Of a stretch of DNA of 35,854 nt, positions 303 to 31,149 are shown piece by piece. Positions within the stretch are counted from its first letter, which is position 1. Every line of letters begins with the position of its first letter. The position numbers and the translations under genes were made by a program. This DNA comes from an uncultured Clostridia bacterium (GTDB lineage Bacteria; Bacillota; Clostridia; Christensenellales; Borkfalkiaceae). The notes beneath the pieces were generated by a model. That model was given only the letters and a program-made list of their open reading frames with translations. It was not told where the DNA came from and did no database searches. The DNA lies in the NCBI GenBank assembly GCA_947629485.1, contig CANRDX010000016.1:1-35854 (forward strand), in the 5' to 3' direction.

Positions 303-3300
303 ATGACAAAACGCAGAAAGATCTGGGTCTCACTTCTCGCACTCGCGGCGGCGGCGCTGCTCATTTGGGCGTTCCATTCGCTATCGGGCATATTCGGCGC
401 GTTTGCCGAAGAGAATGCCGATCTCAGTATCGAGAGGCTGGATCCCGACGACGCCATCTTTAAGAACGGATATCTTGACCGTTACGGCGTTCCCACCGAA
501 AAGTTCGAATACTCCAACAACGGGTCTGCCGAGCAGGGCGCGCCGCTCTCCTATGCGTTCGACCGCAATTTCGGCTCCATTTGGCGTTCGCAGATGCAGT
601 TCAACGGCACGGACGAGACCGTCAACTATGTAGAGGCAAAATTCAACACTCCCGTCGAGATCGACCGCATTCTCTATCAGGCGGACGCGAGCTGGTCCAA
701 CCGCGGGAGCTTTACGCGCGTGCGCATTTCTTATATCCCCGAAGGGGGAAAAGATTATACCGCGCTGGAAGAGCTTGACTACCCGCAGACCTCCGCGACC
801 AACGCCAATCTGATCAAATTCAAGACCCCTCGCACGGTGGAAGCGATCAAGATCGAGTGGTTGAAGATCCACACGGGGCACCGCACCTGTGCGGCGGCGA
901 GCGAGATCATCTATCTCCAACCGCAGAGCGAAGCGGTGGAAAAGGTACAAAAGCTCTTCACCGACTATGCGCAGCTTCATCTCGACCCCTCTATTGAGAC
1001 GAAGGAACAGATCGAGGCGCTCCGCGGCGACGTCATGGAATATGCGTCGTACGATAGCGAGCTTTCGGGCATGCTCAGCCGCGCCGAACAGATCCTCGAA
1101 GGGAAGATCGTCCGCGACGCCCGCAGGGAGATGGGCACGGCGGAGGGGAGCGAAAACCTTTTGACCCGCTACGGCGACGTCGCGGGATATGCGCGCAGTA
1201 CGTTGAAGATGTCGTGGTTCGGCACCAACCGTCAGGCGACGGGCATCTCCGTCACCCCCGCAGACACGCTCACGGTGTATGTGGACGGCGAGGACGGCGA
1301 CCCGCTTCCCCGCCTCGTCATCACGCAGCATTGGGGCGCGTGGTCGGGCTGGAAGAGCGGGGAATACACCCTGCGGCTCGGCAAAAATGTCATTCACCCT
1401 CAGGATATGAACAAAGAGGGGTACAAGACGCAGCATGAGGATCAGAAACAATCTATCCGCGCGGGGGTGCAGGTCCCCACGGGCGGGCCTATCTACCTCG
1501 TCAACCCCTACACGGAAAAAGATCAATCCGAAAACGTCAAAGTGTACATCGAGGGCGGCACGCTCATTCCCATCTTCCGCAAGGGGGGCGACGTCAACTA
1601 CTATAAGGAACAGCTCGCCGCGTATGCGGATACGGTGGAAAACGAGTGGCAGTCCTTGATAGACGGGACAACGCTGAGCGGCACGCCCAAGATCGTAGAC
1701 GTCACCGAGATCGTCTCCGAAAATATCATCGTCACCGTGCGCGCCTCCCGCGCAAACAAGGCGTATAACGAGGCGGGGTACGACCCGCAGCATGCCGCCG
1801 AGAATTGGGACGCCTACGTGAAAGAACTTCTCGAATCGGACGGCGTCATCATCAAAGAAGAGGACAACGGCAATTACGGCGGGAAATACGATCCCCGCGC
1901 ACGCTATCTCAACTGTAACATCCGCCTCATGCAGCCCTACGGCGCGGCATACGCCTTCACGGAGCACGTCGGCATTCAGGTGGATTGGGAGATGGGCGCG
2001 CTCACGGGCGAGAGCTTCGGCTGGGGCTACACCCACGAGCTGGGGCACATGATGGATATCGGAGAGCGCACCGTCAGCGAGTGCAGCAACAACATGCTCT
2101 CCAAATACGATGAGACGGTCATGTCGAAGATCGCCCAGCGCGGGGATTTCGACGCGACGACGGCGGCGCTCGCGCCCGATGAACACGCGGCTTCCTTCTG
2201 GAACACCAACCGCGGCAACTTCATCTTCTGGTGGTTCATCGAGAGCTTTGAAAACGGCTGGTGGCCCACGCTGGAAAATCTCTACCGTTACGAAGATATC
2301 TACAAAGATCACAGGACGGCGGACGGCAAGCTCGAAGCGGACTTTGCCACCATCAACGCCACCGAGAAGCAGGTGCTTCTCTCCTCGATCGCGGCGGGCT
2401 ACGACCTCTCCTATTACTTTGAACGTTGGGGCTACAACCTCTCCATGAACGATCCCATCTTTGCCCGCGCGACGGCTTCGGCGTCCTTCAACACCCTCAT
2501 GGAAGAGGCGAAGAAGGCGGAGAAAATAAAACGGGACGGCTACGAGCCGAAAATTTGGTATGTGGACGCCGACGAATGGTGGGCGCGCAAGCTCGGCGGC
2601 GAAAAAACTTCCATCTATTCCGCCGCCGACCGCCCCGAGATCAAGGCGGTCACCCCCTGCGACGGCGGCTATGCCATTCTCATCGACGGCGGGGAGAAGT
2701 GCAAGCTCTCCTCCCACCTCGGGTTCGAGATCCTCGAAGGCAAAGGGGAGAACAAGAAAGTCGTCGGCTTCACGACCGCCGAGACGTTCACCGATAAGAC
2801 GGAGTACGACGAGGGCTACATCCCCGTATACAGCGTCGTCGCATACGACCGCGCCCTCACCTATTCGGGAGCGAGCGACGAGCTTTCCGCCCAAGAAGAG
2901 GAGATCGTCTGCAAGATCGGCAGCAAAGAGTTCTCCTCCGTCCGCGCGGCGGTGAAGGCGGCGGGGCCTTCCGATACGATCGTCCTCGTCAAGTCCTGCT
3001 ATGCGAGCGGCATCGTCATCGATAAGCCCGTCGCTTTCAGGGCGGAGAACGGCGCCGTGCTCTGCAAGAACGGCTCCGACGAACTCTTCCTCATCGCAGA
3101 GGGCGGCAAGCTCACCCTGACGGGGACGGAGAAAGCGCACTTCATGCTCGACGGCAGCGGCGCCGAGCAGATCAGCGGCCTCATCCGCGTGGATAAGGGC
3201 GGCAGTCTCGACATGGACTACTGCACGCTGCAAAACTGCAATATTTCCCAGCGGAGCGCAAGTAACGGCGCGCTCTCCATCATAGGCGATGCGGATAGCC

Positions 3301-5594
3301 GCGTCACGGTGAACCATACAAACTTTGAGCGCAACTCCTCCCGTCTCGGCGGCGCGGTGTACTCCCAGAGCGGCGCGATCTCGAAGTTCGAGAACTGCAC
3401 CTTTACGAACAACGAGGCGCAGGAGGGCGGCGCGGTGTATTCGCGCGGCACTTCGATGAACTTCCTCTCCTGCACCTTCCGCGAAAACAGCGCGTCGATC
3501 TGGGGCGGCGCAATCGCGGGGACGACCAACTGCAATCTCGGCTTCGAGGAGTCGGCGTTCGAACAAAATTCCTCGGGGCGCGGCGGCGCGATCTATGTTT
3601 TCGGCGCGCTCACCCTCAAAAACGGCAGCGTCACGGGCAACACCGCGACGGAAGAGGGCGGCGCGATCATGCACGCGTCCACGGCATGGTGGCGCGCTAT
3701 GACGCTGAACGGAACCAAAGTCGCAGACAACACCTGCGAGGGCGGCGCGGCGATCTACACCGTCGGGACTGTATCCCTTACGGGGGCGGATCTCTCCGCG
3801 GGCGGCTGTCTGTACGTCTTTGCGGCGGCGTCTAACGAGACGGTCACGTTCAGCGGCGGCAAGCTCGCGGGCGACATCTACAAGAACGAGAAGTGCACGT
3901 TCACGGTGAGAGGCTCCCTCTTCACGGCTTCTGGCACTGTTCACGTCGTCCTCGTCACCGATTCCGCCGTCAGCGCATCCGCGACGATGGAGACGGTGCT
4001 CTTTCAGGCAAACTTTACGTTCGCCTCCGACGCCGCCGCGCCTTTTTCGACGAGCCGCGGGGAGATCGTCGTAGACGGCAGCGAGATCCGTATCTCGCTC
4101 GAAACGGTGGAACTCACCTTCCATGCGGGCGATAAGACTTGGAAGTATCAGTTTCTTCCCGACAAAGAACTTGTGTTCAATACAGATAGTCACGACGAGA
4201 CGACGTACGTCACGGAGTGGTCGGTGGACGGAGCGGTCTATCGGCCGGGCGAGAGCTATCTCGTCACGAAGAGCGCGACCTTCGAGGGCACCGTCGCCAA
4301 AAAGACGCGCGTCGAGTTCCATTATGGATTGGACGGGCAAGAGGACGGCATCGTGTATGTCATTCCCGGCGAGAGCTATTCCTTGCCCCGCCAAACCTTT
4401 GAAAAGCACGTCCTCAACGGCTGGTATCTGAACGATGTGCGCTATCTTCCCGGCTCGTCGCATAAGGCGGAGGCGGGCAAGGATCTCGTCTACACGGCGG
4501 AGATCATCAACAAGTTCGTCGTGCGGTATTGGCTCAAAAACATCAACGGCGGGGAGGATCTGCTGCTCGAAACGCTGTACTACGCCTACGGCGAGGTCCT
4601 CGCCATCGCGGGAGAGGGGCGGTACGAGGGAGATAACATCACCGATTTCATTCCCGACGGGAGCCGCATCGAAACGTATTTGCGCAAGGATACGGGGGAA
4701 GTGCTCTCGGATACCTATGCCGTCGTTTGCGACCTCGAACTCGAAGCGGTCGTCGAGGAACAGCCGATCTATGTCAACTATACCATCAATTACGGCGATC
4801 ACCTCACCAACGACTTCGACGAAGTAAAGCGGGGGACGGACTACACCCTCGCCATGCGGACGATCCCTTACGGCTATCACATCACCCGAATTAGGCTGAA
4901 CTCGGTCGGCGGGCGTTTGGGCTACTATGAAGTCGAGATCCCGCAGGAGCAGGTCGAGAACTTCGTCATAGAAGATATCGACGCAATTTTCTGTATCCTC
5001 GATATTCAGGTGGAGCGCAACGACTACACCGTCACCTATACCCGCAACGGCGAAGAAGTCGATAAACAGCTCTTCAAATACGAGTCGGAGCTTGTTCTCA
5101 GCGCGCCGAAAGAGGGCGAACTGCCCGAAAAGCATCACTTCGTGAGCCTTCAAGTGGGAAGGGAGCAGATGGTGCTCAACGAGGAGGGCGAATATGTCGA
5201 GGCGTTGCAGTTCATCGACCTGCAACTCGACGAGAATGGCGAGACGAAGTATGTCGTGACCGACGATATCGTCATCAACACCAACATCTATATCGAGGTG
5301 GAAGCGCAGCCCGAGGATCCGAGCGGCCCCATTGACCCGACCGACCCCGACGGGCCGACCGACCCCGACGATCCGAGCGGCCCCGACCATCCGACCGATC
5401 CCGATGACCCGAACACGCCCGACACGCCCGATGACCCGAACACGCCCGACGATCCGAGCGATCCCGCCCAAGAGCAGGACGAGGGCGGCGGGATTTCAAC
5501 GCGCATGATCGCGGGGATCGCCGTCGGCGGCGTCGCGCTCATAGGCGGCGTTGCGGCGCTTCTCATCGTTGTGAAAAAGCGCAGACGGCGTTAA
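303..5594 (+). CDS. Large membrane-anchored surface protein with M60-like metalloprotease, F5/8C-like and beta-helix domains
   Basis: The protein has 1763 residues. It begins with a hydrophobic export segment (about 9-35). Residues about 60-205 resemble an F5/8 type C (discoidin) carbohydrate-binding domain. Residues about 290-735 look like a peptidase M60 domain: the zinc site HELGH is at 578-582 and a third ligand Glu is likely E593, fitting the family pattern HExxH-x(8-28)-E. Known M60 enzymes cleave mucin-type O-glycoproteins, so a host or mucin glycoprotein substrate is inferred. Residues about 970-1210 carry repeated GGA(I/V)Y and FxxN motifs typical of right-handed beta-helices of the polymorphic membrane protein type. 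Residues about 1270-1660 contain InlB/MucBP-like beta repeats. The tail is a Pro/Asp-rich spacer (about 1668-1724), a transmembrane helix (about 1735-1755) and KKRRRR. No LPXTG motif is present, so anchoring is by the helix. The gene stands alone between its own promoter and tandem terminators. Confidence 0.85.
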   Translation: MTKRRKIWVSLLALAAAALLIWAFHSLSGIFGAFAEENADLSIERLDPDDAIFKNGYLDRYGVPTEKFEYSNNGSAEQGAPLSYAFDRNFGSIWRSQMQFNGTDETVNYVEAKFNTPVEIDRILYQADASWSNRGSFTRVRISYIPEGGKDYTALEELDYPQTSATNANLIKFKTPRTVEAIKIEWLKIHTGHRTCAAASEIIYLQPQSEAVEKVQKLFTDYAQLHLDPSIETKEQIEALRGDVMEYASYDSELSGMLSRAEQILEGKIVRDARREMGTAEGSENLLTRYGDVAGYARSTLKMSWFGTNRQATGISVTPADTLTVYVDGEDGDPLPRLVITQHWGAWSGWKSGEYTLRLGKNVIHPQDMNKEGYKTQHEDQKQSIRAGVQVPTGGPIYLVNPYTEKDQSENVKVYIEGGTLIPIFRKGGDVNYYKEQLAAYADTVENEWQSLIDGTTLSGTPKIVDVTEIVSENIIVTVRASRANKAYNEAGYDPQHAAENWDAYVKELLESDGVIIKEEDNGNYGGKYDPRARYLNCNIRLMQPYGAAYAFTEHVGIQVDWEMGALTGESFGWGYTHELGHMMDIGERTVSECSNNMLSKYDETVMSKIAQRGDFDATTAALAPDEHAASFWNTNRGNFIFWWFIESFENGWWPTLENLYRYEDIYKDHRTADGKLEADFATINATEKQVLLSSIAAGYDLSYYFERWGYNLSMNDPIFARATASASFNTLMEEAKKAEKIKRDGYEPKIWYVDADEWWARKLGGEKTSIYSAADRPEIKAVTPCDGGYAILIDGGEKCKLSSHLGFEILEGKGENKKVVGFTTAETFTDKTEYDEGYIPVYSVVAYDRALTYSGASDELSAQEEEIVCKIGSKEFSSVRAAVKAAGPSDTIVLVKSCYASGIVIDKPVAFRAENGAVLCKNGSDELFLIAEGGKLTLTGTEKAHFMLDGSGAEQISGLIRVDKGGSLDMDYCTLQNCNISQRSASNGALSIIGDADSRVTVNHTNFERNSSRLGGAVYSQSGAISKFENCTFTNNEAQEGGAVYSRGTSMNFLSCTFRENSASIWGGAIAGTTNCNLGFEESAFEQNSSGRGGAIYVFGALTLKNGSVTGNTATEEGGAIMHASTAWWRAMTLNGTKVADNTCEGGAAIYTVGTVSLTGADLSAGGCLYVFAAASNETVTFSGGKLAGDIYKNEKCTFTVRGSLFTASGTVHVVLVTDSAVSASATMETVLFQANFTFASDAAAPFSTSRGEIVVDGSEIRISLETVELTFHAGDKTWKYQFLPDKELVFNTDSHDETTYVTEWSVDGAVYRPGESYLVTKSATFEGTVAKKTRVEFHYGLDGQEDGIVYVIPGESYSLPRQTFEKHVLNGWYLNDVRYLPGSSHKAEAGKDLVYTAEIINKFVVRYWLKNINGGEDLLLETLYYAYGEVLAIAGEGRYEGDNITDFIPDGSRIETYLRKDTGEVLSDTYAVVCDLELEAVVEEQPIYVNYTINYGDHLTNDFDEVKRGTDYTLAMRTIPYGYHITRIRLNSVGGRLGYYEVEIPQEQVENFVIEDIDAIFCILDIQVERNDYTVTYTRNGEEVDKQLFKYESELVLSAPKEGELPEKHHFVSLQVGREQMVLNEEGEYVEALQFIDLQLDENGETKYVVTDDIVINTNIYIEVEAQPEDPSGPIDPTDPDGPTDPDDPSGPDHPTDPDDPNTPDTPDDPNTPDDPSDPAQEQDEGGGISTRMIAGIAVGGVALIGGVAALLIVVKKRRRR
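5305..5475 (+). repeat. Low-complexity Pro/Asp repeat stretch inside the surface protein gene
   Basis: This stretch encodes irregular DP, DPDDP and DPNTPD units that act as the wall-spanning spacer. It includes an exact 22-nt direct repeat at 5402-5423 and 5429-5450 (period 27, in frame). Such repeats can change copy number by slippage without shifting frame, so spacer length may vary between strains (inference). Confidence 0.8.
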
Positions 5595-10048: not shown

Positions 10049-12694
10049 ATGGCAAAAAAGTATTGTTACCTGTTCACCGAAGGGAACGCGAACATGCGCG
10101 AACTTCTCGGCGGCAAGGGCGCAAACCTCGCGGAGATGACCAACATCGGTCTCCCCGTCCCGCAGGGCTTTACCATTTCGACGGAGGCTTGCACACAGTA
10201 CTATGAGGACGGCAGGCAGATCAATCCCGAAATTCAAGCCGAAATCATGGAATATATCGATAAGATGGAGCACATCACCGGCAAGAAGTTCGGCGATCTC
10301 GAAAATCCTCTGCTCGTCTCCGTCCGTTCGGGCGCGCGCGCTTCCATGCCCGGCATGATGGATACCATTCTCAACCTCGGCTTGAACGAACAAGTCGTCG
10401 AGGTTCTCGCGAAGAAATCGGGCAATCCCCGCTGGGCGTGGGATTGTTACAGAAGGTTCATTCAGATGTTCTCCGACGTCGTCATGGAGGTGGGCAAGAA
10501 GTATTTCGAGAAGCTCATCGACGAGATGAAGGAGAAGAAGGGCGTGAAGCAGGACGTCGAACTCAACGCCAACGATCTCAAAACGCTCGCCAACCAGTTC
10601 AAAGACGAATATAAATCGAAGATCGGCAAGGATTTCCCCTCCGATCCCAAAGAACAGCTCTTCGAGGCGATCAAGGCGGTGTTCCGCTCGTGGGATAACC
10701 CCCGCGCAAACATCTACCGTATGGATCACGATATCCCTTACAGCTGGGGCACCGCGGTCAACGTGCAGATGATGGCGTTCGGCAACATGGGCGACAACTG
10801 CGGCACGGGCGTTGCGTTCACGCGCAATCCCGCAACGGGCGAGAAGGGGCTTATGGGCGAATTTCTCACCAACGCGCAGGGCGAAGACGTCGTTGCGGGC
10901 GTCCGCACCCCCATGCCCATCGCGAAGATGGCGGAGGTGTTCCCCAAAGTATATGCGCAGTTCCAAGACGTCTGCAAGATCCTCGAATCGCACTACCGCG
11001 ATATGCAGGATATGGAGTTCACCGTGGAGAACGAGAAGCTCTACATGCTCCAAACCCGCAACGGCAAGCGCACGGCTGCCGCGGCGATCAAGATCGCATG
11101 CGACCTCATCGACGAGGGCATGATCAGCGAGAAAGAAGCGCTCATGCAGATCGACGCGAAGTCCCTCGACATGCTCCTTCACCCGCAGTTCGACCCGAAG
11201 GCTTTGAAGGCAGCCGATAAGAGCAACATCGTCGGAAGGGGCATTGCGGCTTCTCCCGGCGCGGCGGCGGGCACCATCGTATTCACCGCCGAAGACGCCG
11301 TCGTCGAAGGCAAGAAGGGCAACAAAGTCGTTCTCGTCCGCCTCGAAACGTCGCCCGAGGACATCGAAGGCATGAAATATGCGCAGGGCATCCTCACGGT
11401 GCGCGGCGGGCAGACCTCGCACGCGGCGGTCGTCGCCCGCGGCATGGGTACGTGCTGCGTCTCCGGTTGCGGCGACATCAAGATGGACGAAGAGAACAAG
11501 TGCTTCACGCTTGCGGGCAAGCTCTTCAAGGAGGGCGACGTGCTCTCCCTCGACGGCTCCACGGGCAACATCTACGATGTGCTCATTCCCACCGTTCCCG
11601 CCGATCCGGGCAGCGGATATTTCGGCAGGATCATGGATCTTGCGGATAAATACAAGGCGCTCGGCGTGCGCACCAACGCGGATACGCCCAAAGACGCCAA
11701 GCAAGCGGCTTCGTTCGGCGCGCAGGGCATCGGCCTTTGCCGCACCGAGCACATGTTCTTCGATCCCGCGAGGATCGGCGCCTTCCGCGAAATGATCTGC
11801 GCGGATACCGTCGAGGAGCGCGTGAAGGCGCTCAACAAGATCGAGCCGATGCAGCAGGCGGACTTCGAGGGTCTCTTCGAGGCGCTCGGCGGCCAGCCCG
11901 TCACCATCCGCTTCCTCGATCCGCCCCTCCACGAGTTCGTTCCCACCGAGGAAGAGGACATCAAAGCGCTCGCAAAGGCGCAGAAGAAGTCCGTCGCCGA
12001 GATCAAGCAGATCATCTCCGATCTCCACGAGTTCAACCCCATGATGGGGCACCGCGGCTGCCGTCTCTGCGTCACCTATCCCGAGATCGCCGTCATGCAG
12101 ACGAGGGCCGTCATGAAGGCAGCCATCGCCGTCGCAAGGCGCCATAAGGATTGGAAGATCGTCCCCGAGATCATGATCCCGCTCACGGGCGAAGTGAAGG
12201 AATACAAGTTCGTCAAAGATATCGTCGTAAAGACGGCGGAAGAGGTCATCAAGTCCAAGCACAAGAAGATCAAGTACGAAGTGGGTACCATGATCGAGAT
12301 CCCCCGTGCGGCTCTGACGGCAGACGCCATCGCGAAGGAAGCGGATTTCTTCTGCTTCGGCACGAACGACCTCACGCAGATGACGTTCGGGTTCTCCCGC
12401 GACGACGCAGGCAAGTTCCTTCCCGCATATTATGCAAACAAGATCTACGAGAGCGACCCGTTCGCAAGATTGGATACGACGGGCGTCGGCCAGCTCATGG
12501 AGATGGCTGTGAAGAAGGGCAAGAAAGCGAACAGAAAACTGCACACCGGCATTTGCGGCGAGCACGGCGGCGATCCTTCGTCCATCGAGTTCTGCCACAA
12601 CATCGGGCTTTCCTATGTCTCCTGCTCGCCCTTCCGCGTCCCGATCGCTCGCCTCGCGGCCGCGCAAGCGAATATTAAAAATCCGAGAAAGTAA
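10049..12694 (+). CDS. ppdK: Pyruvate, phosphate dikinase
   Basis: PPDK interconverts pyruvate + ATP + Pi and PEP + AMP + PPi in the cytosol. In anaerobes it often works in the glycolytic direction with PPi. The protein has 881 residues, close to the roughly 874 of the clostridial enzyme. It contains the N-terminal ATP-grasp region (about 1-340, with GGKGANL near residue 22), the swivelling phosphohistidine domain with GGQTSHAAVVARG (catalytic His458) and the PEP/pyruvate TIM barrel ending in GICGEHGGDP with the conserved Cys836. The ATG at 10049 was chosen because AGGAGGA lies 8 nt upstream; a TTG frame opening at 10013 would start within the transcription start region. The gene has its own promoter. 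Its 3' end is unusual: two 205-bp repeat units, each ending with another copy of the C-terminal codons, separate the stop codon from the likely native terminator. Confidence 0.96.
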   Translation: MAKKYCYLFTEGNANMRELLGGKGANLAEMTNIGLPVPQGFTISTEACTQYYEDGRQINPEIQAEIMEYIDKMEHITGKKFGDLENPLLVSVRSGARASMPGMMDTILNLGLNEQVVEVLAKKSGNPRWAWDCYRRFIQMFSDVVMEVGKKYFEKLIDEMKEKKGVKQDVELNANDLKTLANQFKDEYKSKIGKDFPSDPKEQLFEAIKAVFRSWDNPRANIYRMDHDIPYSWGTAVNVQMMAFGNMGDNCGTGVAFTRNPATGEKGLMGEFLTNAQGEDVVAGVRTPMPIAKMAEVFPKVYAQFQDVCKILESHYRDMQDMEFTVENEKLYMLQTRNGKRTAAAAIKIACDLIDEGMISEKEALMQIDAKSLDMLLHPQFDPKALKAADKSNIVGRGIAASPGAAAGTIVFTAEDAVVEGKKGNKVVLVRLETSPEDIEGMKYAQGILTVRGGQTSHAAVVARGMGTCCVSGCGDIKMDEENKCFTLAGKLFKEGDVLSLDGSTGNIYDVLIPTVPADPGSGYFGRIMDLADKYKALGVRTNADTPKDAKQAASFGAQGIGLCRTEHMFFDPARIGAFREMICADTVEERVKALNKIEPMQQADFEGLFEALGGQPVTIRFLDPPLHEFVPTEEEDIKALAKAQKKSVAEIKQIISDLHEFNPMMGHRGCRLCVTYPEIAVMQTRAVMKAAIAVARRHKDWKIVPEIMIPLTGEVKEYKFVKDIVVKTAEEVIKSKHKKIKYEVGTMIEIPRAALTADAIAKEADFFCFGTNDLTQMTFGFSRDDAGKFLPAYYANKIYESDPFARLDTTGVGQLMEMAVKKGKKANRKLHTGICGEHGGDPSSIEFCHNIGLSYVSCSPFRVPIARLAAAQANIKNPRK

Positions 12695-13077
12695 GTTCAC
12701 AAATTTTTCCTGTCGGAAAAATTTCGTGAGGGGTCAAGACGCCGACTTCATTCGGCGTCGTCGCCCGCAGGCGCTCTGCCTTGTCCAAACAACAAGCCGC
12801 AGGGGTGCGGCAAATTGAGTCCCGCAGCGAAGAAGCGTGGTTCTTCTCGCGGAAAAATTGATTGCGGCACAGGCGAATATTAAAAATCCGAGAAAGTAAG
12901 TTCACAAATTTTTCCTGTCGGAAAAATTTCGTGAGGGGTCAAGACGCCGACTTCATTCGGCGTCGTCGCCCGCAGGCGCTCTGCCTTGTCCAAACAACAA
13001 GCCGCAGGGGTGCGGCAAATTGAGTCCCGCAGCGAAGAAGCGTGGTTCTTCTCGCGGAAAAATTGATTGCGGCACAG
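12668..13077 (+). repeat. Two identical 205-bp tandem units joined to the ppdK 3' end
   Basis: Unit 1 (12668-12872) and unit 2 (12873-13077) read as identical over all 205 bases. Each starts with the last codons of ppdK (A-N-I-K-N-P-R-K-stop), continues with about 172 nt of non-coding, hairpin-rich DNA, and ends with sequence that would encode EKLIAAQ, the counterpart of ARLAAAQ in PPDK. A further partial copy of the gene end follows at 13078-13104 with three A-to-G changes. Hairpins in unit 1 are 12698-12728 (10-bp stem plus CAC/GTG), 12738-12759 (8-bp stem), 12797-12810 (5-bp stem) and 12822-12852 (interrupted stem). No plausible ORF or recombinase is inside. See findings for the att-site interpretation. 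Confidence 0.9.
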
Positions 13078-13104
13078 GCGGATATTAAAAGTCCGAGGAA
13101 GTAA
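13078..13104 (+). pseudogene. Third, diverged copy of the ppdK C-terminal codons (likely ancestral gene end)
   Basis: This reads A-D-I-K-S-P-R-K-stop in the same sense as PPDK and differs from copies 1 and 2 at three positions. It sits 24 nt before a strong terminator, as expected for the original end of the ppdK transcript. It is not attached to the rest of the gene. Confidence 0.7.
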
Positions 13105-13127
13105 GCATTAAACGGAAAAGCAAAACG

Positions 13128-13156
13128 GCGGCGCCCCGCAGGGCGCCGCTTTTTTT
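13128..13156 (+). terminator. Intrinsic terminator, probably the native one of ppdK
   Basis: A 9-bp GC-only stem (13128-13136 with 13141-13149) closes on a CGCA loop and is followed by TTTTTTT. It is 434 nt after the ppdK stop in the present arrangement but only 24 nt after the third copy of the gene end. Confidence 0.9.
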
Positions 13157-13245: not shown

Positions 13246-13725
13246 ATGCTTCATGTCGTTCTTGTCGAGCCTGAGATCCCGCAGAATGCGGGCAACATTG
13301 CGCGGACGTGCGCGGCAACGGGGTGCGTTCTGCACCTCGTGCGCCCGTTGGGGTTCGAGATCTCCGATAAATATCTCAAACGCGCGGGGCTGGATTATTG
13401 GAAATATGCGGACGTCCGCCTCTACGACAGTATCGCCGAGGTCTTTTCGGCGCTCACGGGCGCGGCGTTCTTTTTCTTTACGACGAAGGCGGGAAGGAGC
13501 TATACGGAAGCAAACTATCCCGAGGAGTGCGCGCTCGTGTTCGGAAAGGAGACGAAGGGGCTGGACGAAGAGCTTCTTCGGGCGCACCATGATCGCTGTG
13601 TGCGCATTCCGATGCGCGAAGGGCTGCGCTCCCTCAATCTCTCCAACTGCGTCGCGGTCGCCGTGTACGAGGCGTTCCGCCAAAACGGATTCAAGGGGCT
13701 GTCCTCTGCGGGGAGATTCGTATGA
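13246..13725 (+). CDS. trmL: tRNA (cytidine(34)-2'-O)-methyltransferase TrmL
   Basis: TrmL is a SPOUT-fold enzyme that uses S-adenosylmethionine to methylate the 2'-O of the wobble nucleotide in certain leucine tRNAs. The protein has 159 residues, the usual length. Family signatures are the N-terminal VLVEPEIPQNAGNIART, LVFGKETKGL (about 97-106) and the C-terminal knot region RIPMREGLRSLNLSNCVAVAVYE. The N terminus aligns with family members at this ATG, so the start is firm although there is no normal ribosome site. It opens an operon whose next gene overlaps by four bases (ATGA). Confidence 0.93.
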   Translation: MLHVVLVEPEIPQNAGNIARTCAATGCVLHLVRPLGFEISDKYLKRAGLDYWKYADVRLYDSIAEVFSALTGAAFFFFTTKAGRSYTEANYPEECALVFGKETKGLDEELLRAHHDRCVRIPMREGLRSLNLSNCVAVAVYEAFRQNGFKGLSSAGRFV

Positions 13726-24192: not shown

Positions 24193-24267
24193 GCGCGAGT
24201 CGCCTATCGGTATGGCGCCAGCTTCCCAAGCTGGTTCTGGCGGGTTCGATTCCCGTCTCGCGCTCCA
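24193..24267 (+). tRNA. tRNA-Gly (anticodon CCC)
   Basis: A 75-nt cloverleaf: acceptor GCGCGAG (24193-24199) with CTCGCGC (24257-24263), anticodon stem CCAGC/GCTGG around loop TTCCCAA with CCC at 24225-24227, T loop TTCGATT, discriminator T and an encoded CCA. It reads GGG codons. It has its own promoter and terminator and is a single tRNA gene. Confidence 0.95.
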
Positions 24268-26247: not shown

Positions 26248-29200
26248 ATGAAAACATTGCGGAAATTCTTAATCGCGGCGCTTTTTGCGGCGCTCACGCT
26301 GGCGGCGGGGATCTTCGCCGCGGCGTGCTCGAACGAAGACGAGACGGGCGGCGATACGGCGTACACGCTCACGCTGGACTTGGACGGCGGCACGCTCTCC
26401 ACCTCCTCGCTCTCGCTCAAAGAGGGGGAAAACATCTACGACGCCGTGAAAGATCTCGTCCCCGTGAAGACGGGCGTCACCTTCGGCGCATGGTTCTACG
26501 GCGAAAATGCGATCGCCGAGGACATGACCATGCCCGCGGCGGACCTCACGCTTGTGGCGAAATACAAAGTATATTACACGGTGGAAGTGTACCTCGAACA
26601 GCAGGGCGGCAGTTACGCCCGCGCAGACGAGCTTTTTGAAGAGGGGAGCGGCTATGTCGGCACCGCGATCTCTCCGCAGGCTCCCACCGTCGAAGGATAC
26701 GAACGCACGGATATGCCCGCGGGCGGCACGCCCGTGACGTCGATCACGCTCGGTGAGAACGCCGCGGAAAACGTGCTTCGCTTCTATTACAGGATCGAGC
26801 GCGAAGTGATCTCCTTCTCTGCGGGAGCTTTGACGGCGACGGGATCCGTCCCCTCCATCGAACTGATGCGCGGCGGCGCCTACACCCTTCCCGAAAACGG
26901 CTTCAAACTCGAAGGATACCGCTTCGCGGGCTGGTCTACGGCGGCGGGCGGCGAAGTCGAAAAACAGCCCGGCGAAGAGGTGGAAAACGCCGTGCGCTCC
27001 GTCCAATACTTTGCCGTATGGGATCGCGGCTACACCGACCGCATGGGCACGAGCGACGTCATCTTTTTCCCGCGCGGCGCAAAAACGACGGCGATCCTTT
27101 CCCGCGGCGGCGTCGAGCTTGACGCGGAGCAGTATCTCGGCGTGCGCGACGGCGACGAATTCTCCTTCCGCGACGGCGAGACGCGCGGAAAGATCTTCGA
27201 GGACTATACGTTCTGCTACGCGCAAAACGAATATCTCGGAAAATATGTGTTCTACGATCACAACGAGGGCGACGCCTATTTTGAGGAAACAACGCTGACG
27301 GTGGACGAATATTTGGGCGCCGTTTATGCCTATTCCGACGAGAAGGGCGCACACTCCGTTTCGGGCAGCCTCGCCTTCGACCGTGAAAACGGCGACTACC
27401 TCTTCACGGAGAGCGGGGAAGGGCGCACCGCCTTCAACTGTCTGCTCGGCGCGGACGACGGCGGCACGAAGATCTTCTCGATCCGCGGCGACGAAGCGGG
27501 CTTCTATCTCGACTTCTGGATCGTGGACAGGGAGACGGGGCAGGGCTTCTCGATGGGCGACATGCTCATGCTCGACGGATACGGCAAGGCATACGTCTAT
27601 CCCTCTACGGGCTATTTTGTCTGCGAGGGCGTCTACACCGTGAGCGGCACTTACAGCAGTTCGACGGGCGAAAGATTTGTGAAGATGTCCTGCGTCATCG
27701 AGGATCCCTACGGCATTCTCGACGGCACGGAGGGGATCTTCGCGCGTTCGATCTATACCATGCCCTCGGGAGAGGCGGAGTACGGCTACTACGTCTTTGC
27801 GGACAGCTATGAGGGCAATTACACCGCCGCAGACGGTTCCACCCTCACCCTCGACGGCTTCGGCAACTTTGCGGACAGCGCGGTCTACGCGCCTGCGCAG
27901 GGCGAGCGCGTGCAGGGCGGCTACGAACTCTCCATGATCTACAACGAGGGGGCGGTGATCGTCACCCTTGCAGACGGAACGCAGTTCAAGTTAGACTTCT
28001 CCGACCGTCTCTCGCCCTCCTTCGCGCCCTACGCGCCCACCGCCGCCTACACCGAGTATCACCTGCTCGGCTCGGGTGAAGCGGTCGGCTTCCCCCTCCT
28101 TCTCCTCTACGATGAGGACTACGGCGACGGTACGCTCGGGAAGAAGGCGGAACTCTATGTCTCCTTCGACGAGGGCGACACCCTCCAATATGCGGCGAGG
28201 GGCTATTATACCGCAACGGAGATCGGCTCGGGCTTTCTTCTTTACAGCTTCGTGCGCACGGAAGTGGAATCCATCTTTTCCTTCAACGTTCCCGAGACGA
28301 TGAAGTTCTACACGACGGAACTCATCAGCTCGGAGACGCTCTGGCGTCTGCCCGTCTACTGCATTCTCGAAGAGAACGACGTGAAGAATTACGACGTCGT
28401 CGAACTTCCCGACGGCAGTTATTTCTGGGCGCACAGGGAGATCACGTTCGCAGGCGTCGGCTCGCTCTGGTTCGTGGGCGGCGCTGTGATCGAGGGAACG
28501 TTCACGATCTCGCGCAGCCGCTACTTCGATACCGTGCGCGGCACCTTCCTCTACGGCGACGGAAACGCGACGCGGACGCTCTCCTATCTGCTCAATGCGG
28601 ACGCCGACGGCGTATACCATGCCTCGGACGGGGGCGGCGAGGAGACCGAACTTTACTTCTATTATGTAGATAGCGGCTCTTCGAGCGGACAATATATCAT
28701 GGACTTCGTTCTCGACGGACAGGGTAACGCGAAGTGGCAGGACGATCAGGGCGAGTGGCAGAGCGGCACCTATCAGGAAGTGGGCAAAACGGAGTTCGAC
28801 GACCAGATCTTTACGCTGCGGATCGCAGGGGAGATCAAATTCCGTTTCACGATCTATCAGCTCCGCGGCAGCTCCGTCATGAACGTCTACTTCAAATACG
28901 ACGGAAGAACGCAGGGCGATTACACGGCGGCGGACGGCAGCGCCCTTCATCTCGACGGGTACTTCTATGCCAGCTATACGGCGGCGGACGGAACTTCCTC
29001 CTTCGGCACCTATTCCGTCGATCCCTCGCGCACCGTCGTGCTCTTCACCTACGACGAGACGGGCGCGGCGCAGTATTTCAGGATCAACACCTCCTCGCGC
29101 CTGCTCAACATTCTCGACGACGCGTACGGCGAATGGTATCTCGTGAACGCCAGCCTTCAATTCGTCAACTTCTTCACGATCAGATTCGACGGATTGGGCA

Positions 29201-31149
29201 ACTTCTCCGTTTATACCCAGCTCGGCGCGCTGTATAGCTCGGGGCTTTACGCGCCCTTCGGCACGGACGGCGAATATATTCTCTACGACGCCGACCTCGG
29301 CGCGTCGCTCGGCAAGCACGATTTCCGCATCTCATTCTACCGCCCCGCGATGGGCACCTCCGCCTGCGTGGTGTACGACGAGGACTTGAAGGGGCTGTTC
29401 ATCAACGACGATCTCGATATCCTTCAACTCGACGGCTACGGCAACGCGAGCCTCTACACCGCGGACGGAAGATACGGCGGCACGGGCTATTCGACGGTGG
29501 TAGACGAGGAGAACGGCTTCATGTACCTCACCTTCGAGGCGGATTACAGCGAAGTGTACTTCCTGCTCGACCGCGAAGAGGGCACGTTCTATCTGCTTGA
29601 CTACTCCGCGTTCGATCTCGTGTACTACTCCGACGAGTTCAAGCTCCTCTCCTTCGGCTCGGACGCCGCGGCGCGCGTCAATCTGAAAGGCACGCGCTAT
29701 ACGGAGGGGGAGGACGGCTCCCGCACCGAGGAGGAATACGAGACGCTGTTCAGCGGATTCTACTATGTGTGGGAGGGCAAGACGCACGTCTATCCCTACG
29801 ACTACGAGACGGAGTCCTCGACGCACCATGTGCTCGACTTCGCGCCCGGCAAAGACGTCGCAAATTTCACCTACGACGGCGCGACGTACACCCTCTGGGA
29901 CGGAAACGAGATCCGCATCCGCGGCGTTGTGGAATTCTACGGCAAGGACAACGAGCCGACGGGCGAGGATCCGATCGACGCGGAGTTCGCCTTCAAGTTG
30001 AAGGACAACGGGCAGAACTACAATCTTGCGGGGCAGTTTGTGCTCGGCGGGCAGACGTATAACGACTTCACACTCAACTTTTATACGGACGGCGGCTTCC
30101 GCCCCACGGTCACATATAATTATGTAGACTACGCGATTTCGTTCGGCGTGGAGGGCGATACGAGAACATTCACCGTAAGGGCGGGATATATCGTCGAAGA
30201 TATGCCCGACTTCTACGACAACTTCCGCGAGACGGAGACGGTCCACCTCGGCGGGCACATCGTGAAGGAATTCATCGGGTTCGGCCCCCTCGAACTTCGG
30301 CAGGCGGAGTACAGCGGCGAATTCTACTATCTCTACGACAAGGCGACATTCTCCGAACCTATCACGTTCAGCGAGATCAAGGCGGAGGAGCTTGTGAAGG
30401 TCGGCTACCGCGGCGACAACGGCACGGGTTCCGGCTCGCTCGGCTACTGCTACGAGATCGTGTTCGCGTTCAAAGGCGTGAACTACGCGGTGGATTTCTA
30501 TGAAACCTATGCCGAAGAGAACGAGGGCACCGTCTACGTTCTGCAAGGCTTCTATTCCTACAAGGAGTTTGAAGCGGACGGATACACGGTTCGCCTCAAA
30601 TTCTTCGAGCATGCGACGACGCAGAACACGCCCGGCTACGGCGTGGAGGGCGCAAAGGGCAAGCCGTACGCCGCGACCGTGTTCAAAGACGGCGAGGCGA
30701 TCGTCAACTACGATACGGGCGTGACGATCGGCGGCGACGCGGTTTGGCTCATCGAATTCACGGGCGTAAACGACAACGGCTATTCGCGTGCGGGCGCGGG
30801 CTATCTCGTCAAATATGCGTACGCTCCCGACGGGGCGGCGGTGCAATCGGTCACCGTGGAGAAATACGCCTTCAAGCAGCTGGCGACGGCTTCGGGCGAC
30901 TTCTTCTTCAACCTCTTCGTAGACGGCGAAGGGAACATCGCGCAGGTCATCGCCGTTGCATACAAGGTCTCGTCGGATGCGTGGGCGTGGGTCGAGGAGG
31001 CGCACGATCTCACCCGCAATGCCGACGGCACGGAGTGGGTGTTCTACGGCAAGGCGGGCAGCGCGATCGAGAACAAGTTCACCGCCGTGTTCGAGCAGTC
31101 CGCATCTCTCGGGCTGACCGTGCGCGTCAAGACGGAGATCGCGGGATAA
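26248..31149 (+). CDS. Very large repeat lipoprotein of unknown function
   Basis: The protein has 1633 residues and starts with a lipoprotein-like signal peptide ending FAAAC (Cys27), with an AAAGGAGG ribosome site. Residues about 35-260 contain InlB B-repeat-like beta-grasp units (LDLDGGTLS, EGYRFAGWST, YFAVWD). The remainder is beta-rich, acidic and full of Tyr, Phe, Asp and Gly. A motif [L/F]DGxGxA..Y....G....GxY recurs at about residues 441, 534, 822, 902, 981 and 1062; the last four are spaced by almost exactly 80 residues, and a weaker copy lies near 731. I recognise no catalytic motif. It is co-transcribed with the CxxC/thioredoxin lipoprotein, which suggests a shared surface role, perhaps adhesion or polymer binding. 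Confidence 0.85.
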   Translation: MKTLRKFLIAALFAALTLAAGIFAAACSNEDETGGDTAYTLTLDLDGGTLSTSSLSLKEGENIYDAVKDLVPVKTGVTFGAWFYGENAIAEDMTMPAADLTLVAKYKVYYTVEVYLEQQGGSYARADELFEEGSGYVGTAISPQAPTVEGYERTDMPAGGTPVTSITLGENAAENVLRFYYRIEREVISFSAGALTATGSVPSIELMRGGAYTLPENGFKLEGYRFAGWSTAAGGEVEKQPGEEVENAVRSVQYFAVWDRGYTDRMGTSDVIFFPRGAKTTAILSRGGVELDAEQYLGVRDGDEFSFRDGETRGKIFEDYTFCYAQNEYLGKYVFYDHNEGDAYFEETTLTVDEYLGAVYAYSDEKGAHSVSGSLAFDRENGDYLFTESGEGRTAFNCLLGADDGGTKIFSIRGDEAGFYLDFWIVDRETGQGFSMGDMLMLDGYGKAYVYPSTGYFVCEGVYTVSGTYSSSTGERFVKMSCVIEDPYGILDGTEGIFARSIYTMPSGEAEYGYYVFADSYEGNYTAADGSTLTLDGFGNFADSAVYAPAQGERVQGGYELSMIYNEGAVIVTLADGTQFKLDFSDRLSPSFAPYAPTAAYTEYHLLGSGEAVGFPLLLLYDEDYGDGTLGKKAELYVSFDEGDTLQYAARGYYTATEIGSGFLLYSFVRTEVESIFSFNVPETMKFYTTELISSETLWRLPVYCILEENDVKNYDVVELPDGSYFWAHREITFAGVGSLWFVGGAVIEGTFTISRSRYFDTVRGTFLYGDGNATRTLSYLLNADADGVYHASDGGGEETELYFYYVDSGSSSGQYIMDFVLDGQGNAKWQDDQGEWQSGTYQEVGKTEFDDQIFTLRIAGEIKFRFTIYQLRGSSVMNVYFKYDGRTQGDYTAADGSALHLDGYFYASYTAADGTSSFGTYSVDPSRTVVLFTYDETGAAQYFRINTSSRLLNILDDAYGEWYLVNASLQFVNFFTIRFDGLGNFSVYTQLGALYSSGLYAPFGTDGEYILYDADLGASLGKHDFRISFYRPAMGTSACVVYDEDLKGLFINDDLDILQLDGYGNASLYTADGRYGGTGYSTVVDEENGFMYLTFEADYSEVYFLLDREEGTFYLLDYSAFDLVYYSDEFKLLSFGSDAAARVNLKGTRYTEGEDGSRTEEEYETLFSGFYYVWEGKTHVYPYDYETESSTHHVLDFAPGKDVANFTYDGATYTLWDGNEIRIRGVVEFYGKDNEPTGEDPIDAEFAFKLKDNGQNYNLAGQFVLGGQTYNDFTLNFYTDGGFRPTVTYNYVDYAISFGVEGDTRTFTVRAGYIVEDMPDFYDNFRETETVHLGGHIVKEFIGFGPLELRQAEYSGEFYYLYDKATFSEPITFSEIKAEELVKVGYRGDNGTGSGSLGYCYEIVFAFKGVNYAVDFYETYAEENEGTVYVLQGFYSYKEFEADGYTVRLKFFEHATTQNTPGYGVEGAKGKPYAATVFKDGEAIVNYDTGVTIGGDAVWLIEFTGVNDNGYSRAGAGYLVKYAYAPDGAAVQSVTVEKYAFKQLATASGDFFFNLFVDGEGNIAQVIAVAYKVSSDAWAWVEEAHDLTRNADGTEWVFYGKAGSAIENKFTAVFEQSASLGLTVRVKTEIAG

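Follow-up and report, generated by a model that had tools for sequence, protein, structure and literature searches.

Staphylococcal cassette chromosome (SCC) elements occupy the 3' end of rlmH, are moved by the Ccr serine recombinases, restore the gene end and can stand several in tandem between direct repeats. The present analysis concerns a window of 35,854 bases from an uncultured Borkfalkiaceae bacterium (assembly GCA_947629485.1, contig CANRDX010000016.1), in which a presumed pyruvate phosphate dikinase gene, named ppdK in an earlier note on this DNA, is followed by two identical 205-bp units that contain further copies of its own 3' end (spare or extra tails). Genomic islands in tRNA genes, as described in one account (PMC4383910), restore their target and leave a displaced fragment. 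The ppdK locus shares with them a regenerated gene end and a displaced fragment, but differs in that the target is a protein gene, the units are tiny and carry no integrase, and the spare copies keep a coding-type constraint. The reading favoured here, with moderate confidence, is that the ppdK 3' end in this genus acts as a recombination hotspot which stacks spare tails, and at which units of a tail plus a hairpin spacer would be exchanged between genomes. The features of the array are as follows.

10049..12694, plus strand: ppdK, pyruvate phosphate dikinase, from its translation, the start being taken at the ATG of MAKKYCYLF.
12659..12694, plus strand: c1 (T1), the own tail of ppdK, reading AAQANIKNPRK and stop and containing the core GCxCAGGC.
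12696..12863, plus strand: E1 copy 1, a dispersed structured repeat, its ends set by eye.
12864..12899, plus strand: c2, a hybrid tail copy, its left part like c3 and its right part like c1.
12901..13068, plus strand: E1 copy 2, identical to copy 1.
13069..13104, plus strand: c3, the third tail copy, substituted (ADIKSPRK), with non-repeated DNA behind it.
13122..13155, plus strand: a terminator-like GC-rich hairpin (inverted repeat) followed by a T run.

The C-terminal part of the window ppdK is 81-96% identical to that of relatives in the genus (full-length C-terminal matches). Directly behind the gene, positions 12668-12872 and 12873-13077 match at 205/205 positions, and the ppdK tail is present three times at a spacing of 205 (starts 12659, 12864 and 13069). 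The 205-bp repeat is not due to chance, being the only direct repeat of 30 bases in the window: 179 plus-strand 30-mers recur later in the window, all starting within 12667-12845 (0-based), and no further direct repeat of this length was found in its 35,854 bases. The three junctions differ, with gene sequence to the left of c1, unit sequence on both sides of c2, and other DNA plus the terminator-like hairpin to the right of c3. The identical units, the three occurrences of the gene end with distinct flanks, and the third copy leading into different DNA and the hairpin at 13122-13155 had all been described in the earlier note and were reproduced. The middle copy was further resolved as the left part of c3 (GCGGCACAG) fused to the right part of c1 (GCGAATATTAAAAATCCGAGAAAG).

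Judged by its sequence, the 205-bp unit is a dispersed repeat, E1, joined to a spare ppdK tail, and not a dedicated element. E1 is the hairpin-rich, 168-bp core of the unit lying between the tails; copy 1 comprises a left stem (TTCACAAATTTTT to AAAAATTTCGTGAGG), the GCCGCAGGGGTGCGGC hairpin and a terminal hairpin. A BLAST query with the 205-bp unit returned nine matches in the window genome, just three of them within the ppdK array, which shows that the core is not unique to the site, and matches in 46 of the 61 genus genomes examined. A covariance model built on the 3' part of E1, whose E-values are rough, gave 35 matches in the window genome at E <= 1e-4, two of them in the window array; among the 27 matches listed, 25 stand elsewhere. 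Counts ranged from 33 to 52 per genome in six genomes, and in a sample of the family 15/81 genomes from 4/18 genera were matched. The left stem is variable, often with TTCAC at its start, while the 3' domain is conserved and shows changes on both sides at 10 of 18 predicted pairs over 24 copies, as expected of compensatory stems. Copies elsewhere occur without a ppdK tail, and E1 is tandem at several other places, with periods of, for example, 171, 194, 202, 219 and 248; tandem examples include L007 1523-2043, L017 928-1709 and L026 1-646. By eye, no repeated gene end accompanies five other E1 arrays (L004, L011, L016, L017 and L026, the last starting at a contig end). E1 resembles repetitive extragenic palindromic (REP) sequences and miniature inverted-repeat transposable elements (MITEs) in being short, palindromic, gene-free, present in tens of copies per genome and often tandem, but unlike them has several hairpins with compensatory changes and no Rfam family. 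A known RNA family was ruled out as its identity by the lack of any Rfam match at gathering score: in the window only a tRNA was matched and no family for the unit, and a search of nine related loci with a cutoff of E <= 1 returned a single tRNA besides ten weak matches under the gathering scores.

Spare tails are not confined to the window. Among 103 genomes of the genus searched, 77 had a ppdK match, and 71 ppdK loci were read, 70 of them from 69 genomes (G008 twice) and one, L100, from genome contigs; eight genomes with a ppdK match (G003, G006, G007, G011, G064, G070, G078 and G083) are outside the tail count, and L098 and L099 were excluded because their tails and flanks are identical to those of L035 and L049, which they were judged to repeat. 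A tail model found extra tails at 25/71 loci, 20 with one, four with two and one with four, giving 32 copies; five of the 46 loci without extra tails have less than 300 bases downstream, where arrays could be missed. The spare tails correspond to the last 12-17 codons of ppdK, the shared tail being 33-51 bp long, and in nearly all tail copies the stop and the final codons, well away from the core, are retained. By content, 24 of the 32 spacers are E2 (described below), two are E1 plus E2, two are E1 only (both in the window) and four are neither. Arrays were absent from 23 loci of other genera, at least seven of which have less than 500 bases downstream and one of which (L242) shows a single match of 14 bases to its own tail. 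They were likewise absent from those wider loci that could be read, 74 of the 77 in L101-L177, with one of the 74 too short to tell. Mapped onto a tree built from the sequence immediately upstream, array presence at the 25 loci requires at least 16 changes.

Plain ppdK ends, with the stop followed by a terminator, and other tail copy numbers also occur in relatives. The varying copy numbers and plain ends that the earlier note suggested looking for are real, but the plain ends are not proven empty sites, because the DNA behind ppdK differs between genomes. The first gene 3' of the array illustrates this variation, having been met downstream of ppdK only in the window genome among the loci compared, many of which have less than 1.5 kb downstream.

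13246..13725, plus strand: a presumed TrmL-like tRNA methyltransferase gene, from its reading frame, translation and comparison.

Elsewhere in the window lie two very long reading frames (303-5594 and 26248-31149; 1763 and 1633 aa) and a tRNA at 24193-24264 (Rfam). Several contigs of relatives stop 22-152 bases past the ppdK stop (G021:C74, G006:C7, G007:C35, G088:C39, G056:C52 and G102:C12), as if assembly breaks there, and G163 has equal-scoring ppdK C-terminal matches on two contigs (C1:375-692 and C16:36378-36695).

The spare tails are marked by the kind of change they have accumulated. Set against the own tail of the same locus, they carry 15 changes at codon position 1, 7 at position 2 and 100 at position 3, and the 32 copies together show 99 synonymous and 10 nonsynonymous codon changes, against a neutral expectation of 23-28% synonymous. 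Nonsynonymous changes are absent at 21/25 array loci, the exceptions being L072, L056, L097 and L028, which is the window. In-place translation was ruled out as a general cause of this constraint by 16 copies in which the 90 bases upstream offer no in-frame ATG, GTG or TTG following the last stop and which nevertheless show 48 synonymous changes and one nonsynonymous; 14 other copies outside the window, with an in-frame upstream start, show 44 and five. At L090 five tails show synonymous differences only, and a few base changes and a 4-base indel distinguish their spacers. Since the differences are almost exclusively synonymous, most spare tails look as if they had served as real ppdK gene ends until recently, and not as decaying local duplicates. 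The earlier note had supposed that the tail variant of the window was acquired from a related lineage; this fits the resemblance of extra tails to functional ppdK tails.

In relatives, the same site is used by a larger element, which was located as follows.

L197 2207-4042 and L198 5523-7406 (also L069, L199, L200 and L257): at the ppdK 3' end, an element that looks conjugative, has a large serine recombinase and replaces the C-terminus of pyruvate phosphate dikinase.

A large serine recombinase gene, of 611 aa in G024 and 627 aa in G007, runs into GTGGAGTACT joined directly to GCACAGGC, after which a native ppdK tail follows; the 611-aa protein matches Pfam Resolvase (2.4e-29) and Recombinase (1.4e-17), and a VirB4-like gene lies near the recombinase in G007. 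Conversely, ppdK in G024, G007 and G006 ends in AAIKQSKEKK and a stop, with element-type DNA behind it, and a very similar replaced ppdK end was found in G152, from another genus. The element core GCACAGGC falls in the same ppdK codons as the tail copies, and the core GCxCAGGC inside c1 is the one used by this element. In G069 and G162, relatives of the recombinase begin some 300 bases downstream of ppdK, the G162 copy having an internal stop. The recombinase family was detected in 6/103 genus genomes (E <= 1e-80) and in 5/81 genomes of the family sample (E <= 1e-100); the window genome had no relative at E <= 1e-80, in a search that covered this family of recombinases alone, and its unit could also be served in trans by a recombinase from another source. 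Faintly similar sequence stands behind ppdK at L116 and L146, and the element may be more widely spread.

These junctions support the ppdK 3' end as a site where integration restores the end of the gene. To that extent the earlier note's idea of a self-restoring gene end holds (G024, G007 and G006), whereas its reading of the array as attL, intact element and attR of a specific circular 205-bp element is not supported, the core being dispersed. The window unit is bounded by the target-site copies c1, c2 and c3, but the unit itself is not site-specific, as shown by the 35 E1 matches, and a dedicated circular element of 205 bp is ruled out as stated. The element of G024 and G007 is SCC-like in that a serine recombinase gene marks one end and both junctions, presumably linked, lie where a conserved protein gene stops, with the gene end restored; tandem units between direct repeats are a further likeness of the locus. 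The locus is unlike SCC in that most tandem spacers are gene-free and about 100-200 bp long, in its direct repeats of 33-51 bp, which have diverged synonymously, and in the VirB4-like gene near the element.

The predominant spacer, E2, is a hairpin that begins directly after the stop codon, the next core ending 93-121 bases on. A search of 61 genomes for two E2 core patterns gave 10 and 9 places, of which 11 are ppdK ends, two the recombinase end of the element, two on a G059 contig with further tails, and four in DNA unrelated by eye. The hairpins appear in single-sequence folds, the covariation of their arms being judged by eye only; a consensus fold from a plain alignment gave two pairs and zero covariation. 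The spacer arrays invite comparison with integron cassettes and their attC hairpins, likewise tandem units with one hairpin each; unlike these, the units hold no gene and those of the L090 array are near-identical. No attC core boxes were recognised in the units by eye, and integron integrases were not searched for.

Taken together, these observations suggest a history for the window. The ancestral state would have been gene tail, E1, E2 and spare tail, an order still present in G059, where E1 is backed by the covariance model (E 1.6e-11). E2 would then have been lost, probably through GCGGCA, common to the start of E2 and the spare tail, and an unequal crossover between the two tails would have doubled the 205-bp interval and left c2 as the hybrid middle tail. 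No second integration would be needed, since one unequal crossover in an arrangement of tail, E1 and tail yields exactly this hybrid; in all probability the second unit arose by a recent duplication. The insertion twice or as a dimer that the earlier note preferred is hence dispensable, and its alternative, unequal duplication after an older duplication of the gene end, agrees with c2 as the expected crossover product. More generally, units of tail and hairpin spacer may pass between genomes and recombine at the tail, either homologously or through a site-specific recombinase acting in trans. The sequences with their junctions, the arrays across the genus, the coding-type constraint and the element ends in the same codons are observed, and the order of events, the exchange between genomes and its agent are what we infer from them.

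Several results weigh against a hotspot with exchange. Displacement by an incoming unit predicts that the last tail, and not the own tail, is nearer to the tails of plain-ended relatives. Compared with the closest such relatives at 23/25 array loci (L056 and L097 dropped), the last 27 bases placed the own tail nearer at 14/23 loci and the last tail at four, with five ties, when one relative was used; own-to-last ratios were 11:7 with three relatives and 12:6 with five, and over 39 bases they were 13:5, 9:9 and 9:9 with one, three and five. An earlier form of the test gave 11 for the own tail, eight for the last and six ties. Simple displacement of the native tail by an incoming one is accordingly unsupported. 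Extra tails also differ from the own gene's tail by a mean of 4.0 in 39 bases and from the average other tail by 9.6, while a still nearer tail exists in some other genome for 18/32. The window copies, with seven synonymous and four nonsynonymous changes, show the weakest constraint together with L097, and the window spare tail may be older and decaying; the loss of E2 there rests on a 6-base microhomology. The upstream tree was built from 300 columns, with 29/68 inner branches open and the bootstrap unsettled, and its 16 changes have no shuffle control. Decayed copies may escape the tail model, whose training set consisted of coding tails, and at L046, counted as array-free, a decayed spare tail was seen by eye about 81 bases past the ppdK stop with a weak score. 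The two kinds of element ends sit on different contigs, and that both belong to one element is inferred. Finally, the left edge of homology lies 4-10 bases left of the element core in 18/32 extra copies, but 18 bases left in the other 14. Confidence in the hotspot reading was slightly lowered by these edges and by the separate contigs of the element ends.

One possible, though doubtful, alternative is that the units are mobile gene-tail cassettes, cut out as small circles and inserted site-specifically at the ppdK core by the ppdK-site serine recombinase or another one acting in trans, each insertion swapping or adding a gene end. It would make of the locus, tentatively, a protein-free cassette array in which a functional tail and a hairpin spacer move between genomes and swap or stack the C-termini of a housekeeping protein through a site common to a serine-recombinase conjugative element. 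The 18 homology edges close to the core, the coding-type constraint in copies lacking a usable start, the patchy occurrence of one, two or four extra copies and the varied spacers all speak for such movement, as does the identity of T1 and T2 over 36 bases at 4/25 array loci, which looks like a recent event. The 14 more distant edges do not fit, the recombinase family was detected at E <= 1e-80 in just six genomes of the genus and not in that of the window, the element's own arms are not visible by eye at the unit ends, and the native-tail test does not favour it. Viral carriers of the units were also considered, and viral contigs gave no exact match to the tail or E2 patterns.

A purely homologous origin, by local tandem duplication of the gene end and frequent replacement of ppdK with alleles of related species, would dispense with site-specific movement altogether and would leave own and spare tails resembling those of different lineages. 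Homologous recombination would suffice, the hybrid junction of the window is of that type, and extra tails are closer to the own gene's tail than to the average other tail. Leftover tails should, however, decay neutrally, yet 21/25 array loci are free of nonsynonymous change and L046 is the single decayed relic seen among array-free loci; moreover, the shared tail measures only 33-51 bp and the left ends of the copies cluster at two places. We regard this origin, too, as possible but doubtful.

An improbable third explanation holds that the constraint on spare tails is that of a DNA site for a recombinase, which would need codon positions 1 and 2 and tolerate changes at the wobble position, so that the constraint would mimic coding. 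Where recombinases act on protein genes, they may rely on conserved positions, and the core does lie inside the tail, but the stop and last codons, distant from it, are kept as well in nearly all copies, and the element itself supplies a different right half, AAIKQSKEKK. That the window copy number is a metagenome assembly error, as the identity of the two units and the breaking of assemblies just behind ppdK might suggest, is very unlikely given that c1, c2 and c3 all differ and that comparable arrays occur in many separately assembled genomes.

The surprising part is that spare tails are kept as if coding, at a third of loci. Among the papers listed, no mention of pyruvate phosphate dikinase or ppdk was found, nor of 'dikinase' in passages of PMC10083194, which is no claim of absence from print. 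Large islands that encode an integrase are already known to restore their target gene; here, a working gene end is carried by very small units that lack genes, and seemingly untranslatable copies still show coding-type constraint. Should the units move, they would be site-specific cargo of very small size, and a new serine recombinase could readily be assayed at the ppdK tail. Should they not, the locus would provide a clear case of gene-end shuffling by recombination in gut bacteria.

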